A DNA stretch of 64,000 nucleotides from Isoptericola sp. AK164. GTDB lineage: Bacteria > Actinomycetota > Actinomycetes > Actinomycetales > Cellulomonadaceae. Made by a program: the position numbers and the translations under genes. Of the stretch, positions 37,883 to 48,425 are shown piece after piece (position 1 is the stretch's first letter; each line of letters begins with the position of its first letter). The notes beneath the pieces are model-generated. The model did no database searches, had not been told where the DNA came from, and saw nothing but the letters and a program-made list of their open reading frames with translations. The stretch covers positions 2,108,001 through 2,172,000 of the forward strand of contig NZ_CP119106.1 in the NCBI RefSeq assembly GCF_029643425.1, given 5' to 3'.

Positions 37883-37955
37883 TCCCGCGTAGCTCAGCTG
37901 GCAGAGCATCCGACTGTTAATCGGACGGTCACTGGTTCAAGTCCAGTCGCGGGAG
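37883..37955 (+). tRNA. tRNA-Asn (anticodon GTT), rebuilt by the inserted element
   Basis: 73 bases, CCA not encoded. Acceptor TCCCGCG pairs with CGCGGGA; anticodon arm TCCGA-CTGTTAA-TCGGA gives GTT; T-arm ACTGG-TTCAAGT-CCAGT. The last 28 bases belong to the 29-bp repeat that bounds the mobile element, so the element supplies or preserves the 3' end and the tRNA stays intact. Confidence 0.97.
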
Positions 37956-37956
37956 C
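37928..37956 (+). repeat. attL, 29-bp core inside tRNA-Asn
   Basis: Begins GTCACTGGTTCAAG and ends CCAGTCGCGGGAGC; identical to 48397-48425. It starts at the base of the anticodon-to-T-arm junction, the usual crossover region for tyrosine integrases. Confidence 0.95.
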
Positions 37957-37964
37957 ACTCCACG

Positions 37965-38006
37965 AAAGGGCCCCTGAACTGCGCAAGCGCAGGACGGGGG
38001 CCCTTT
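37965..38006 (+). terminator. Element-borne terminator after tRNA-Asn
   Basis: AAAGGGCCCC (37965-37974) pairs with GGGGCCCTTT (37997-38006). It replaces the native tRNA terminator, which was displaced to 48431-48468 by insertion. It has a run of T after the stem. Confidence 0.8.
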
Positions 38007-38020
38007 GCCGTTCCCGTCTT

Positions 38021-38038
38021 GCATCCTCCGTGCATCCT
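38021..38038. repeat. Candidate integrase arm-type sites, left end
   Basis: GCATCCT at 38021-38027 and 38032-38038, an 11-bp repeat period. The same pair with the same period and orientation occurs at 48268-48285 near the right end. Confidence 0.5.
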
Positions 38039-38227
38039 TCACGCGCTCTGCAACGCGTCCGAGACCACCCGATCCGGAGCACTGGCGCCCCTCTGGCCGA
38101 CCGGAGCACATCGGACCCCGAACCCGGCTGTTCGGCGCCGGCCTGTGCACATCACTGTGGACGGAGACCTCGAAGGTCGTACCGCGAACCATGGCGCACC
38201 ACGGCCCACCATGAACACAGAAAGTGC

Positions 38228-38242
38228 TCTGACCTGCACAAA
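38228..38242 (+). promoter_or_regulatory. Shared 15-bp promoter motif, copy 1
   Basis: TCTGACCTGCACAAA, identical to 44796-44810. It contains a CTGACC -35-like hexamer with a 17-base spacer to TGCTAG. It lies 77 bases before the excisionase-like gene. Confidence 0.5.
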
Positions 38243-38319
38243 CGCTCGGAATGCTAGTTCTCTGTGCTCGTAAGGTTGTGGTGACAGCGCATGACGGAAC
38301 TACACCGCAGGAGCTTCCC

Positions 38320-45754: not shown

Positions 45755-46693
45755 CTAGCTCAAATTCTCGGCGATCCAGTCCTCGCTGAGGTCGCCGGCC
45801 TTCATGACATCGACAGAGACATCCGCTTTGAGCGAGTTCCCGCGAACGTAGCCGTGCGCTGCTGCCACCTTGCCGGCCGCCTCGAGCCGGTCGACGACGG
45901 GTAGGAGGTCTGTCGACGTCACGGCAGACAGCATCCCGCACCGCTGACCGTCGATCCGGACTTCGACGACACGCTTGCCCGTTCGGGTGCCTGGCTTCTC
46001 GATGCCGTGCAGTGAGACCCAAACTCCCGTCCGAGTGCCCCGCGCGAATGGGGCGATGGCCTCTACGTGGTCTTCTTCGCCCGTCACCTGTACCTGACGC
46101 GAGTTGGGAGGCAGCTCCACGACCTCACCATCAGGTCGTCCGTTGGCCGGCACGATCTCGCCCGGTTCACCGAGTGCGATCGTGACCCGTGCACGCCACG
46201 TCCCGTCGCTGTTGGTGGCCCACACCCGAACTGGGGTGACGGCAGCGCGGCCGTCCTGCAGCAGCCGATCGAGGACCGGGCGGTATCGCTGTGCTTCCTC
46301 GCGCGGCAGGTAGCCCACCTCGAACTCGTCAACGTCGACTCGCACGGCCTGGGAGTCGTGGGGGTTGTTCCGCTCCGGCACTAGCACCGCATCGCCGTAG
46401 TACTCCTGGCCCGAGGCAAGCGCGTGCTTCTTGAACAGCTTGCGGAAGGAGTCGCGACGGTACGCCTCGCCGACGATCTCCGTGTCCGGGAAGTTTGAGC
46501 CCCACAGCTCAAACGCGCCGAGCGTCAGAGTCTCGCGCTCGGGCGGTTTCCCCGCCGCGGGGCTGCCAGTCGTGGGAGCAGCCTCAGGCGTTCTGACGGG
46601 CGAAGCCGGATCCTGTCGTCGTCGGCGCGAGGACCTCCCGGCGAGCCAGAACAGTAAGGCGCTTACCAGGATTAGAACGACGACGAACTCCAT
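45755..46693 (-). CDS. Membrane-anchored HIRAN-domain protein
   Basis: 312 residues. N-terminal membrane anchor (MEFVVVLILVSALLFWLAG) with a basic stop RSSRRRR, so the rest is probably cytoplasmic. A HIRAN-type domain lies at about 75-150: GQEYYGDAVLVPERNNPHDSQAVRVDVDEFEVGYLPREEAQRYRPVLDRLL, with the diagnostic NP-x-D...AV...VGYLPR pattern. A second, looser strand-rich repeat follows (EVRIDGQRCGMLSAVTSTDLLPVVDRLEAAG). HIRAN domains bind DNA ends in helicases such as HLTF; free-standing ones in mobile elements are linked to phage or restriction contexts. No helicase is present here, so the role is open. Confidence 0.75.
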   Translation of the reverse strand: MEFVVVLILVSALLFWLAGRSSRRRRQDPASPVRTPEAAPTTGSPAAGKPPERETLTLGAFELWGSNFPDTEIVGEAYRRDSFRKLFKKHALASGQEYYGDAVLVPERNNPHDSQAVRVDVDEFEVGYLPREEAQRYRPVLDRLLQDGRAAVTPVRVWATNSDGTWRARVTIALGEPGEIVPANGRPDGEVVELPPNSRQVQVTGEEDHVEAIAPFARGTRTGVWVSLHGIEKPGTRTGKRVVEVRIDGQRCGMLSAVTSTDLLPVVDRLEAAGKVAAAHGYVRGNSLKADVSVDVMKAGDLSEDWIAENLS

Positions 46694-46830
46694 TCGGCGA
46701 GGCTATCGTTGCCTAGCGCGAGCATTCATCCGACGCACGGGTGAATTCGCGGGCGATCTTCCACGTAGGCGAGATCATTCCTGCCTGACGGGCTACGGTC
46801 GAGCGTGATTGTGCGCCAAGGAGGGCAGCT

Positions 46831-47064
46831 GTGATGAAGGATGTCGGTTCCGTGGAGAAGATGGCCCTCTACTGGGCCGCGCTGACCTTCGGGGGAGGGC
46901 TCGTGATCGGGGCCGGCCTCGTGACGGAGACGGTCGGACTGGCCGGATTCGGCTACCTGGTGGCCGCCGTCGGGTCGGTCTTCGGGATCATGCTCGTGGT
47001 TCGCGCCGCTCGGGCCATGGACGAGGTCGCCGCTCGCGTGGCCCGCCTGGATCGGACCCCTTAG
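46831..47064 (+). CDS. Small two-helix membrane protein of the element
   Basis: 77 residues from GTG 46831 (ATG 46834 also possible), with AGGAGG upstream. Two membrane helices: WAALTFGGGLVIGAGLV and FGYLVAAVGSVFGIMLVV, then a short positively charged helix. Small membrane proteins of this type in mobile elements may act in exclusion or as holin-like toxins; nothing here decides it. It ends 21 bases from the integrase gene, tail to tail. Confidence 0.65.
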   Translation: MMKDVGSVEKMALYWAALTFGGGLVIGAGLVTETVGLAGFGYLVAAVGSVFGIMLVVRAARAMDEVAARVARLDRTP

Positions 47065-47085
47065 CGCCCCGCCACGGGCCCCCTC

Positions 47086-48258
47086 CTAGCTCGCCTGACT
47101 CCCACTCCCCCGCGTCGCCGTCACTGCCAACCGCTCCGCGATCAGCTGCTCACGTGAGTCCGTGCTGTGCTGATACCGCATCGCCGCGGCAGCGGTGGAG
47201 TGGCCGGCGCGCGCCATGAGCTCGGCGAGCGTGGCGCCCTCGTGAGCCGCCAGCGTCAGGCCGGTGTGCCGCAGGTCGTGGAATCGCAGATCGGGGCGTC
47301 CGGCCGCCGCTCTCGCCTTGTTGAAGTGCCACTTCATCGCCGAGTTCGCCAGGTGCCCGCCTGACGACGCCGGGAAGAGCAGAGCGTCCCCTTCCGGCTC
47401 GACGTGAGTCGCGAGGTGGCTGGCCAGCACGGGCACGATGTGGAACGGGATCGTGACGTCTCGCACGCCGGCATCCGACTTGGGCTTGCCGACGACGTGC
47501 TCTCCACCGACGCGCGCGACCGCGCGACGAACATGCACCACGCCTGTGGGCCGCGGGCCGTCCATGTCGAGCTCGAGGTCACGCCGCCGGAGTTCGGCCG
47601 CTTCGCCGTACCGGAGGCTGCACCACGCCGAGATCAGCACCATGGCGCGCAGCCGATCGGGCATCGAGTCCACGATGGCGTCCAACTCGGCGAGCGTCGG
47701 CACCTTCGTCTCCGAGGCACGCGCAGCCGTGCCGGCGCCCTTGATGACGCACGGGTTGGCAGCGATGAGCTGATCCCCGACCGCGGTCGACAGGATGGCG
47801 CGCAACAGCGAGTAGGCGTGAGAGCGGTAGGTGCGGCCGGTCGTGTCCCGGAGCCCGTTCCACCAGTCGCGGACCGCGGACGGCGTGATCTCGTCGAGCC
47901 GGTGGTCGGCGAACCTCGGCAGGATGAACCGCTCGAGCAACCGCTCGTAGTGGGCCACGGTCCGGGGCTTGAGCGGTCGGCCCCGCACCTCCCGGTGATC
48001 CAGCCACTGCACCGCGTACTCGCCGAGGACGGGGGCCGGCGTGTCGTCCGGTGTCTCGCTCACGCGGGACCAGGTGCCGTTGCGGATGGCGCGGTGCACC
48101 TCGGCGAGCCAGCCCTCGGCGTCCTCGCGATGCTCGAACGTGTGGGGACCCGTGTGCCTGGCGCCGTCCGGGCCGGTGTAGCTCGCCTGGTACCGGCCCG
48201 AGCGCATGGCCTGGATCTTCCCGAACGCTCGCCGCGTCCGCCGCTTCGAATCTGCCAC
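47086..48258 (-). CDS. int: Tyrosine-family site-specific integrase
   Basis: 390 residues from GTG 48258, preceded by GGGGGA; an ATG at 48282 would add 8 residues. Domains: N-terminal arm-binding segment (AFGKIQAMRSGRYQASYTGPDG...), a SAM-like core-binding domain (about 75-160) and a catalytic domain with R (CSLRYGEAAEL), K (VGKPKSDAG), HDLRHT, GHS and the nucleophile region AMRYQH. All catalytic residues are present, so it should be active. It is next to attR, and repeats resembling arm sites overlap its upstream region, which could let it repress itself. It belongs to the actinophage/pSAM2-type integrases. Confidence 0.94.
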   Translation of the reverse strand: MADSKRRTRRAFGKIQAMRSGRYQASYTGPDGARHTGPHTFEHREDAEGWLAEVHRAIRNGTWSRVSETPDDTPAPVLGEYAVQWLDHREVRGRPLKPRTVAHYERLLERFILPRFADHRLDEITPSAVRDWWNGLRDTTGRTYRSHAYSLLRAILSTAVGDQLIAANPCVIKGAGTAARASETKVPTLAELDAIVDSMPDRLRAMVLISAWCSLRYGEAAELRRRDLELDMDGPRPTGVVHVRRAVARVGGEHVVGKPKSDAGVRDVTIPFHIVPVLASHLATHVEPEGDALLFPASSGGHLANSAMKWHFNKARAAAGRPDLRFHDLRHTGLTLAAHEGATLAELMARAGHSTAAAAMRYQHSTDSREQLIAERLAVTATRGSGSQAS

Positions 48259-48267
48259 CGTTCCCCC

Positions 48268-48285
48268 GCATCCTGTCTGCATCTT
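48268..48285. repeat. Candidate integrase arm-type sites, right end
   Basis: GCATCCT (48268-48274) and GCATCTT (48279-48285), 11-bp period, matching the left-end pair at 38021-38038. Two more ATCCT cores follow (48305-48309 and 48327-48331). Confidence 0.5.
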
Positions 48286-48396
48286 TGCGGCCGTCCACAG
48301 GGTCATCCTGTGACACCTACAGTCACATCCTATCGGCACGGCAGCCGCATGAACAGGCGGTTTACGGTGTGATCTCGCGAGATCCGACCGAGACTT

Positions 48397-48425
48397 GTCA
48401 CTGGTTCAAGTCCAGTCGCGGGAGC
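48397..48425 (+). repeat. attR, second copy of the 29-bp core
   Basis: Identical to attL at 37928-37956. It is only the 3' part of tRNA-Asn (T-arm and acceptor) and is not a second tRNA gene. Confidence 0.95.

Follow-up and report, generated by a model that had tools for sequence, protein, structure and literature searches.

The closest described parallels to the locus reported here are the phage-inducible chromosomal island-like elements (PLEs) of Vibrio cholerae. A 2026 Nature paper describes PLE1, PLE4 and PLE11 as encoding a tail assembly chaperone (TAC) together with a tape measure protein (TMP), and PLE11 also BhuB; in PLE11 virions the satellite TMP is present and the tails are about 10 nm shorter, and deletion of tmp from a PLE lowers transduction (PMC12987554). 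The paper states that putative tmp genes also occur in satellites of other Vibrio species and, as the legend of its Extended Data Fig. 10 has it, in some capsid-forming phage-inducible chromosomal islands (cf-PICIs) (PMC12987554). In addition, the 16.8-kb Pseudomonas satellite AH14b was reported in 2016 to have a single putative gene for tail assembly, 'tail assembly protein I' (PMC4936722). Here we report an element of 10,498 bp integrated at a tRNA-Asn gene of Isoptericola sp. AK164, within a stretch of 64,000 nucleotides of contig NZ_CP119106.1 (positions 2,108,001 to 2,172,000), hereafter called the window. We lean towards reading this element as an integrated phage satellite that substitutes its own TMP and its own chaperone for part of the tail-assembly pathway of a helper siphophage. 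The initial annotation of this DNA regarded tail redirection by a satellite as new, which does not hold, as the V. cholerae PLEs already do so (PMC12987554).

The limits of the element are given by a perfect 29-bp direct repeat, whose only two copies in the window start at 37928 and 48397 (Table 1). The host genome is a single contig of 3.58 Mb, and the tRNA-bearing flank of the element is matched in 18 of 18 genomes of the same genus, its own included. An empty site was found in the same-genus genome G042 (labels with G denote genomes and those with L denote loci), where the tRNA-Asn gene ends at position 2160 of L213 and the right flank of the element in the window aligns from 2166. A different island of 8.5 kb, with another integrase and a 44-nt repeat, occupies the same tRNA-Asn in G084, also of this genus (L229, G084:C16, 2558-11132); neither a TMP nor a capsid was recognised in it. 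Therefore, the element is a true insertion at a tRNA hotspot. As expected of a satellite, it has its own integrase and attachment sites and, with an excisionase-like gene and a regulator besides, it looks excisable as judged from its sequence.

The tail functions of the element reside in two adjacent genes. Profile searches identify the products of the genes at 41123 and 41560 as a tail assembly chaperone and a TMP, respectively, as initially annotated, and the predicted fold of the chaperone agrees, the best PDB match of the model being 5IR0, the chaperone of the V. cholerae satellite PLE1. The nearest phage relative is L175, with 48% identity for the chaperone and about 35% for the TMP, and in phage relatives the two genes are close together in the same order. 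A tblastn search with the TMP found matches in 102 actinophage records; the 25 matches listed were all annotated as tape measure, and they fell within residues 339-519. The window TMP retains both conserved ends, namely, an N-terminal region and a C-terminal motif, around a middle that is shorter than in its phage relatives. Compared with the 673-residue TMP of L175, residues 1-226 align with 1-239 and residues 364-547 with about 491-673, so that the middle comprises 137 residues in the window and about 251 in L175, although the alignment is loose and the exact cut uncertain. In total, the window TMP is 126 residues shorter than that of L175 and 221 residues shorter than that of L011, the four nearest phages (L175, L191, L012 and L011) having TMPs of 673-768 residues. 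The eight phage loci compared have an interval of 135-328 nt between chaperone and TMP with a further short open reading frame (ORF), which is accessible through the -1 frame in four of them (L175, L013, L015 and L062). No further ORF lies between the two genes in the window, where the chaperone stop overlaps the TMP start. In phage lambda, recruitment of the tube protein falls to the second part of such a chaperone; therefore, the element would depend on its helper for this function.

Searches of the 16 element proteins against Pfam and PHROGs recognised no head, packaging, tube or lysis family, and specifically no terminase, portal or capsid, although unrecognised ones are possible; the exception is the helix-turn-helix (HTH) of the excisionase-like protein, which weakly matches small-terminase profiles (E 0.009 and 0.39). 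On the genes recognised among these 16 proteins, the element could not build a virion alone, and in its chaperone and TMP it has genes that would act on the assembly of helper virions, two features that define satellites. All called reading frames are whole, with overlaps of 4 nt between xis and rep, 1 nt between s2 and s3, and 4 nt both between s3 and s4 and between chaperone and TMP; gaps of 39, 191 and 74 nt separate other genes of the element. The ends, the empty site and these searches confirm the initial annotation of a compact integrated element that carries tail-length genes but no capsid, packaging or lysis genes, and its intact integrase and excisionase-like gene are borne out by PF00589/phrog_1 and phrog_66. 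For the replication-type gene that it also listed, the profile match is weak, but gene 7 of the compact prophage L030 is a relative, with 41% identity over 116 residues. Other searches with rep found one weak match besides L030 in the family; six weak matches in the order led to loci that are in part plain host DNA, and phage records and viral contigs gave no match.

Table 1. Coordinates and supporting matches of the element in the window, followed by the sister islands that carry a TMP.
Feature	Location	Strand	Evidence or content
tRNA-Asn(gtt)	37883..37956	+	3' end = attL
attL	37928..37956		29-bp core, = 3' end of tRNA-Asn
Excisionase/MerR-like HTH protein (xis)	38251..38628 (start may be 38320)	+	HTH_17 4e-6; phrog_66 6e-9
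Replication-initiation-like protein (rep), weak	38625..39563	+	phrog_1032 E 0.0015
s1, orphan, 82 aa	39603..39851	+	no Pfam/PHROGs family
s2, orphan, 203 aa, predicted long helices	40043..40654	+	single-sequence model
s3, orphan, 56 aa	40654..40824	+	no Pfam/PHROGs family
s4, orphan, 75 aa	40821..41048	+	nothing above Pfam cut-off, none in PHROGs
Tail assembly chaperone (DUF7426)	41123..41563	+	PF24201 1.8e-14; phrog_3860 'tail assembly chaperone' 2e-10
TMP, 547 aa	41560..43203	+	phrog_3547 9e-18; three other TMP families <1e-8
128-aa protein paired with repressor-like gene	43344..43730	-	no significant family; best phrog_12478 E 0.29
XRE-type HTH regulator, candidate repressor	43727..44095	-	HTH_31 4e-9; phrog_1373 3e-14
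Protein without assigned function	44141..44686 (true start probably 44539)	-	Pfam/PHROGs searched
Protein with weak DUF6907 match	44697..45242 (true start probably 44928)	+	DUF6907 E 0.022
80-aa protein without assigned function	45334..45576	+	Pfam/PHROGs searched
HIRAN-domain protein	45755..46693	-	PF08797 1.1e-9; relatives in three sister islands
Small probable membrane protein	46831..47064	+	read from sequence
Tyrosine integrase	47086..48339 (true start probably 48258, 390 aa)	-	PF00589 1.8e-13; phrog_1 2e-55
attR	48397..48425		29-bp core
L122 island	G098, 13.7 kb, tRNA-Asn-type repeat		integrase, xis, AAA ATPase, 197-aa protein, TMP, 301-aa protein, small terminase (TerS), HIRAN
L190 island	G106, 13.8 kb, tRNA-Asn		close L122 relative: TMP 85%, HIRAN 91%
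L193 island	G100:C12 5014-13660, 8.6 kb, tRNA-Ser, 24-nt repeat		other integrase
L116+L234 island	G140:C9:47056-66190 (L116 1557 to L234 6191), 19.1 kb, tRNA-Arg, 29-nt repeat		integrase 45%

To establish where this tail pair occurs, both genes were surveyed. First, DUF7426 was found in 10 of 200 family genomes, the window among them; eight of these loci (L011-L018) are head-tail gene blocks, and L019 was rejected as a false hit with no phage genes around it. In 396 genomes of the order, DUF7426 gave 17 places, namely, the window, 14 head-tail gene blocks and two matches below the cut-off in plain host DNA. Across both surveys, the window is the sole fetched locus above the cut-off that lies outside head-tail gene blocks. 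Second, a profile of the TMP N-terminus gave 28 places in 219 family genomes, corresponding to 27 genes (two places were merged as one gene). Terminase, portal or capsid genes lie near 22 of the 27, one sits on a 6-kb contig and is undecidable, and the remaining four are in islands without a recognised portal or tube: the window, L122, L190 and L193. Loci L074 and L075, with no phage genes around them, and L207, undecidable at a contig end, were dropped. Third, a fifth TMP island, L116+L234, whose TMP belongs to another subfamily, came from the neighbourhoods of related integrases, 37 of which were fetched from more than 100 places found, some cut by contig ends.

Beyond the family, the TMP profile gave two weak long-frame matches in 102 other genomes of the class, and a chaperone scan of genome contigs found nothing beyond two phage loci already known. 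Viral contigs gave no matches to either protein in single-sequence scans. A chaperone alignment recovered six loci from them, of which L042 and L043 are short contigs without recognised head genes, and a TMP N-terminus alignment recovered 16, with no further island: 15 of the 16 have terminase, portal or capsid matches, and the remaining one is L176, a contig of 4.2 kb that holds tube and TMP. For the fetched loci, gene calling relied on a program of our own based on codon usage, and labels came from blastp comparison with reference proteins that had been labelled by eye; PHROGs bore out all ten labels tested (10/10), but divergent head genes could still be missed. No resident helper phage was found in the genome of the window, with single profiles that can miss divergent phages.

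No portal or tube gene was recognised in any TMP island, and a capsid was recognised in L193 alone. The combination of chaperone and TMP, part of the gene set that the initial annotation proposed to look for in related genomes, holds for the window, but the sister islands pair their TMPs with other partners, namely, TerS, the large terminase (TerL), or capsid plus scaffold. The TMP of L122 has 569 residues and its TerS is of P27 type (phrog_1496 2e-17). Its close relative L190 has an integrase (13207-14174) without the N-terminal part, directly beside the attachment repeat, and this copy is probably stuck in place. L193 encodes a TMP of 374 residues, a scaffold (phrog_4708 3e-7), an HK97-type capsid (PF05065 2.7e-17) and a 271-residue protein related (25%) to the 301-residue protein of L122, with no recognised portal, terminase or tube; it thus holds head and tail parts together in one satellite-like element. 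The island L116+L234 encodes an AAA ATPase, a ParB-like protein, a TMP of 1012 residues, TerL (Terminase_6C 3e-13) and a HIRAN protein (L234, 4628-5386), which is 42% identical over 103 residues to that of the window and falls below the Pfam cut-off (19.4 vs 24.7 bits). HIRAN is present in four of the five TMP islands (the window; L122, 12272-12763; L190, 2951-3442; L234) and in no other locus of the 2282-protein set. As an exclusive marker it was rejected, relatives being present in 16 other viral contigs, one of which (L240) has a match to TMP references.

Several side observations concern these islands. A protein of 270-300 residues, possibly a partner of the truncated TMPs described below, follows them directly with a 4-nt overlap (L122, 8590-9495; L190, 6223-7128; L193, 10543-11358), and has a SEC-C motif in L122. 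In G098, a compact prophage of about 16 kb lies between the L122 island and the tRNA-Asn gene (L122 15442 to L126 12962); its TMP is of L030 type and does not support a role as helper of L122. The compact prophage group to which L030 belongs (L030, L126, L194, L195, L197, L198, L200-L202, L204 and L208) is frequent in the family genomes searched and has terL, portal, a large capsid gene (about 490-560 residues) and TMPs of 382-660 residues. Three further islands have no recognised TMP: L107, at tRNA-Asn with a 29-nt repeat, a related integrase and P27-type TerS; L112, at tRNA-Val with a 29-nt repeat and one HK97-type capsid gene (4240-5487, PF05065 9e-41); and L110, at tRNA-Asn with a 26-nt repeat and a weak capsid-like gene (5971-7101, phrog_10 8e-5, no Pfam match). 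Both L112 and L110 are small, with related integrase and excisionase and no further recognised virion gene.

The origin of the island TMPs was addressed with a maximum-likelihood tree of 19 TMP N-termini. In this tree, L193 groups with phage L012 (99/97) and L122 plus L190 fall into a group that also holds phage L175 and two compact phages (87/85, open fork), whereas the window is placed apart from both groups. The TMP of L122 is 67% identical to that of L175 over 561 columns, and those of L122 and L190 are collinear with L175 up to residue ~557 of 673, after which the C-terminal end is lost. Likewise, the TMP of L193 is 40% identical to that of L012 and collinear to ~402 of 716, its C-terminal end also being lost. 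The TMP of L116 matches those of L014/L017/L018 type at 29-31% and equals several phage relatives in length (1003-1034 residues in L014, L017, L018 and L069); both this TMP and that of the window keep C-terminal motifs. Tree placement and phage matches therefore indicate that TMPs were captured at least three times, probably four. Between L122 and L190, the ratio of non-synonymous to synonymous substitutions (dN/dS) is 0.154 for the TMP (dS 0.55), 0.26 for the 301-residue protein and 0.17 for the 197-residue protein; thus, these genes are being kept and are not debris, with the TMP evolving under purifying selection.

These comparisons bear on the different tail length that was initially proposed. 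A short TMP with both ends kept fits this proposal in the window, but L116 is of full length and the other three are short by C-terminal loss, so that a shorter tail was rejected as the common purpose of satellite TMPs; the common theme is replacement or disruption of the helper TMP, not length. No tail should be initiated by a TMP that has lost its tip-proximal end, and the truncated TMPs of L122, L190 and L193, in islands with no recognised chaperone, may therefore be inhibitors, which suggests interference.

For the element of the window, we propose the following sequence of events. Infection by a related siphophage would lead the element to excise and replicate, and its chaperone would coat its own TMP, on which the tube, tip and terminator proteins of the helper would polymerise. 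The resulting chimeric tail would then join a helper-derived head carrying element DNA. Since the window TMP keeps its N-terminal region and C-terminal motif, and its loss is in the middle, this tail would be functional but shorter, by roughly 13-20 nm relative to L175 and 23-35 nm relative to L011, if the ratio of the PLE paper, 95 residues to 10-15 nm, is applied (PMC12987554). The main benefit is probably the selective use of its own TMP together with evasion of whatever targets the helper TMP, the change in tail length probably being a consequence rather than the main benefit.

It is also conceivable, though on balance rather unlikely, that chaperone and TMP are used, by the element or by the bacterium through it, as decoys that titrate the tip, tube or chaperone of the helper and block the tails of incoming phages, without building tails of their own. 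The truncated TMPs of L122/L190 and L193, unaccompanied by a recognised chaperone and, in the L122/L190 pair, maintained in two genomes at low dN/dS, are what such interference would look like; a window chaperone without the further ORF of its phage relatives is compatible with it too, and blockade of tails through the TMP is known from Tab (PMC10884400). However, the window TMP keeps its C-terminal motif and brings a chaperone, which is beyond the needs of a decoy, and PLEs with the same gene pair are described as building functional tails (PMC12987554).

Descent by deletion is harder to sustain, and we consider it improbable. Here the element would be a prophage deprived of its genes for head, tube and tip and on its way to decay, with chaperone and TMP as leftovers. 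Such genes are neighbours in phages, rep and integrase have relatives in the compact prophage L030, and the truncated integrase of L190 implies that decay occurs in this group. Nevertheless, the tail pair resembles L175/L011-type phages, whereas the nearest relative of rep plus integrase is L030, whose TMP matches only at E 0.005; this mixture is therefore not accounted for by one simple deletion, and we rejected the simple deletion of one phage as sole origin. Moreover, the called frames are whole, with none of the broken or partial virion genes of a decayed prophage (although an old clean deletion would look alike), the attachment repeats are perfect, and four intact small genes lie between rep and chaperone. 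TMP islands that lack a recognised portal or tube recur, one of their TMPs being under purifying selection, and no close relatives were encountered that carry the same genes with head genes in between. The initial view that this is an island bounded by attachment sites, and not obvious prophage wreckage, stands. Finally, transfer through unrecognised genes, with the tail genes as minor cargo, is very improbable: small, helical proteins often serve satellites as capsid-size factors, and the mostly helical s2 could be such a factor, having no relatives in 221 family genomes (other than its own) or in phage records, but fold comparison of its model gave nothing meaningful (best E 0.12), and the retention of TMPs in several islands argues that the tail genes matter.

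Beyond the satellite reading of this one element, it is quite possible, if somewhat less likely than not, that piracy of tail modules is a recurrent lifestyle of actinobacterial satellites. In this scenario, related integrase/excisionase backbones at tRNA sites would have repeatedly captured TMPs from different siphophage lineages, with varied partners (chaperone; TerS; TerL; capsid plus scaffold) and often beside HIRAN. Two modes would exist. In one, complete TMPs would be built into chimeric tails (the window and L116); in the other, TMPs truncated at the C-terminus would poison the tails of the helper (L122/L190 and L193). The same chaperone and TMP pair in an unrelated bacterial phylum, and several TMP captures, suggest that satellites take over tails as a general strategy, described in 2026 for one family, the V. 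cholerae PLEs, which would stand beside takeover of capsids and of packaging. The 10.5-kb island offers a compact test system for tail length, protein content and infectivity, and its truncated sisters raise the question of whether a tape measure can become an anti-phage weapon.

Among the titles and abstract openings listed by searches of open-licence PMC papers, preprints being outside this search, none reports a TMP-bearing actinobacterial satellite. Known actinobacterial satellites include MulchRoom, which has a tyrosine integrase like the element, and MiniFlayer; they encode capsid and packaging genes, whereas their tail proteins are those of the helper or short fibres, and the word 'tape' is absent from the text of that paper (PMC10690885). 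In AH14b the tail protein is of the lambda TAPI type, and a TMP is named in its helper AH14a only (PMC4936722). Tab resembles the element in that it is encoded by a prophage and acts through the TMP on how phage tails are assembled, but it is described neither as a TMP nor as a chaperone, and builds no tails (PMC10884400). In comparison with PICIs, no TerS, cpm or Rpp-type gene was recognised in the window with Pfam and PHROGs, where s1-s4 are orphans, whereas L122 and L107 have P27-type TerS. The cf-PICIs are likewise integrated satellites with a partial set of virion genes, some with a putative tmp (PMC12987554), but the element lacks a recognised capsid, portal, terminase or connector; its sister L193 has capsid, scaffold and TMP, with no recognised portal or terminase. 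The siphophages and prophages with DUF7426 that are related to L175, L011 and L012 have the closest chaperone and TMP, but within head-tail gene blocks and with the further ORF after the chaperone.

The PLEs thus remain the nearest parallel, as chromosomal satellites with a tac and tmp pair, and the fold of the window chaperone has its best PDB match in the TAC of PLE1 (5IR0). Hallmarks of PLEs are a large serine recombinase as integrase and PLE-specific genes. The element has no large serine recombinase (other PLE genes were not searched for), but a tyrosine integrase (PF00589/phrog_1) at tRNA-Asn; no BhuB was recognised in it; and its tail genes are siphophage-type and actinophage-like, as opposed to the contractile tail of ICP1 type. 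Satellite tail takeover is therefore a principle already known from PLEs, of which this element would be an independent, siphophage-type, actinobacterial version that apparently evolved separately.

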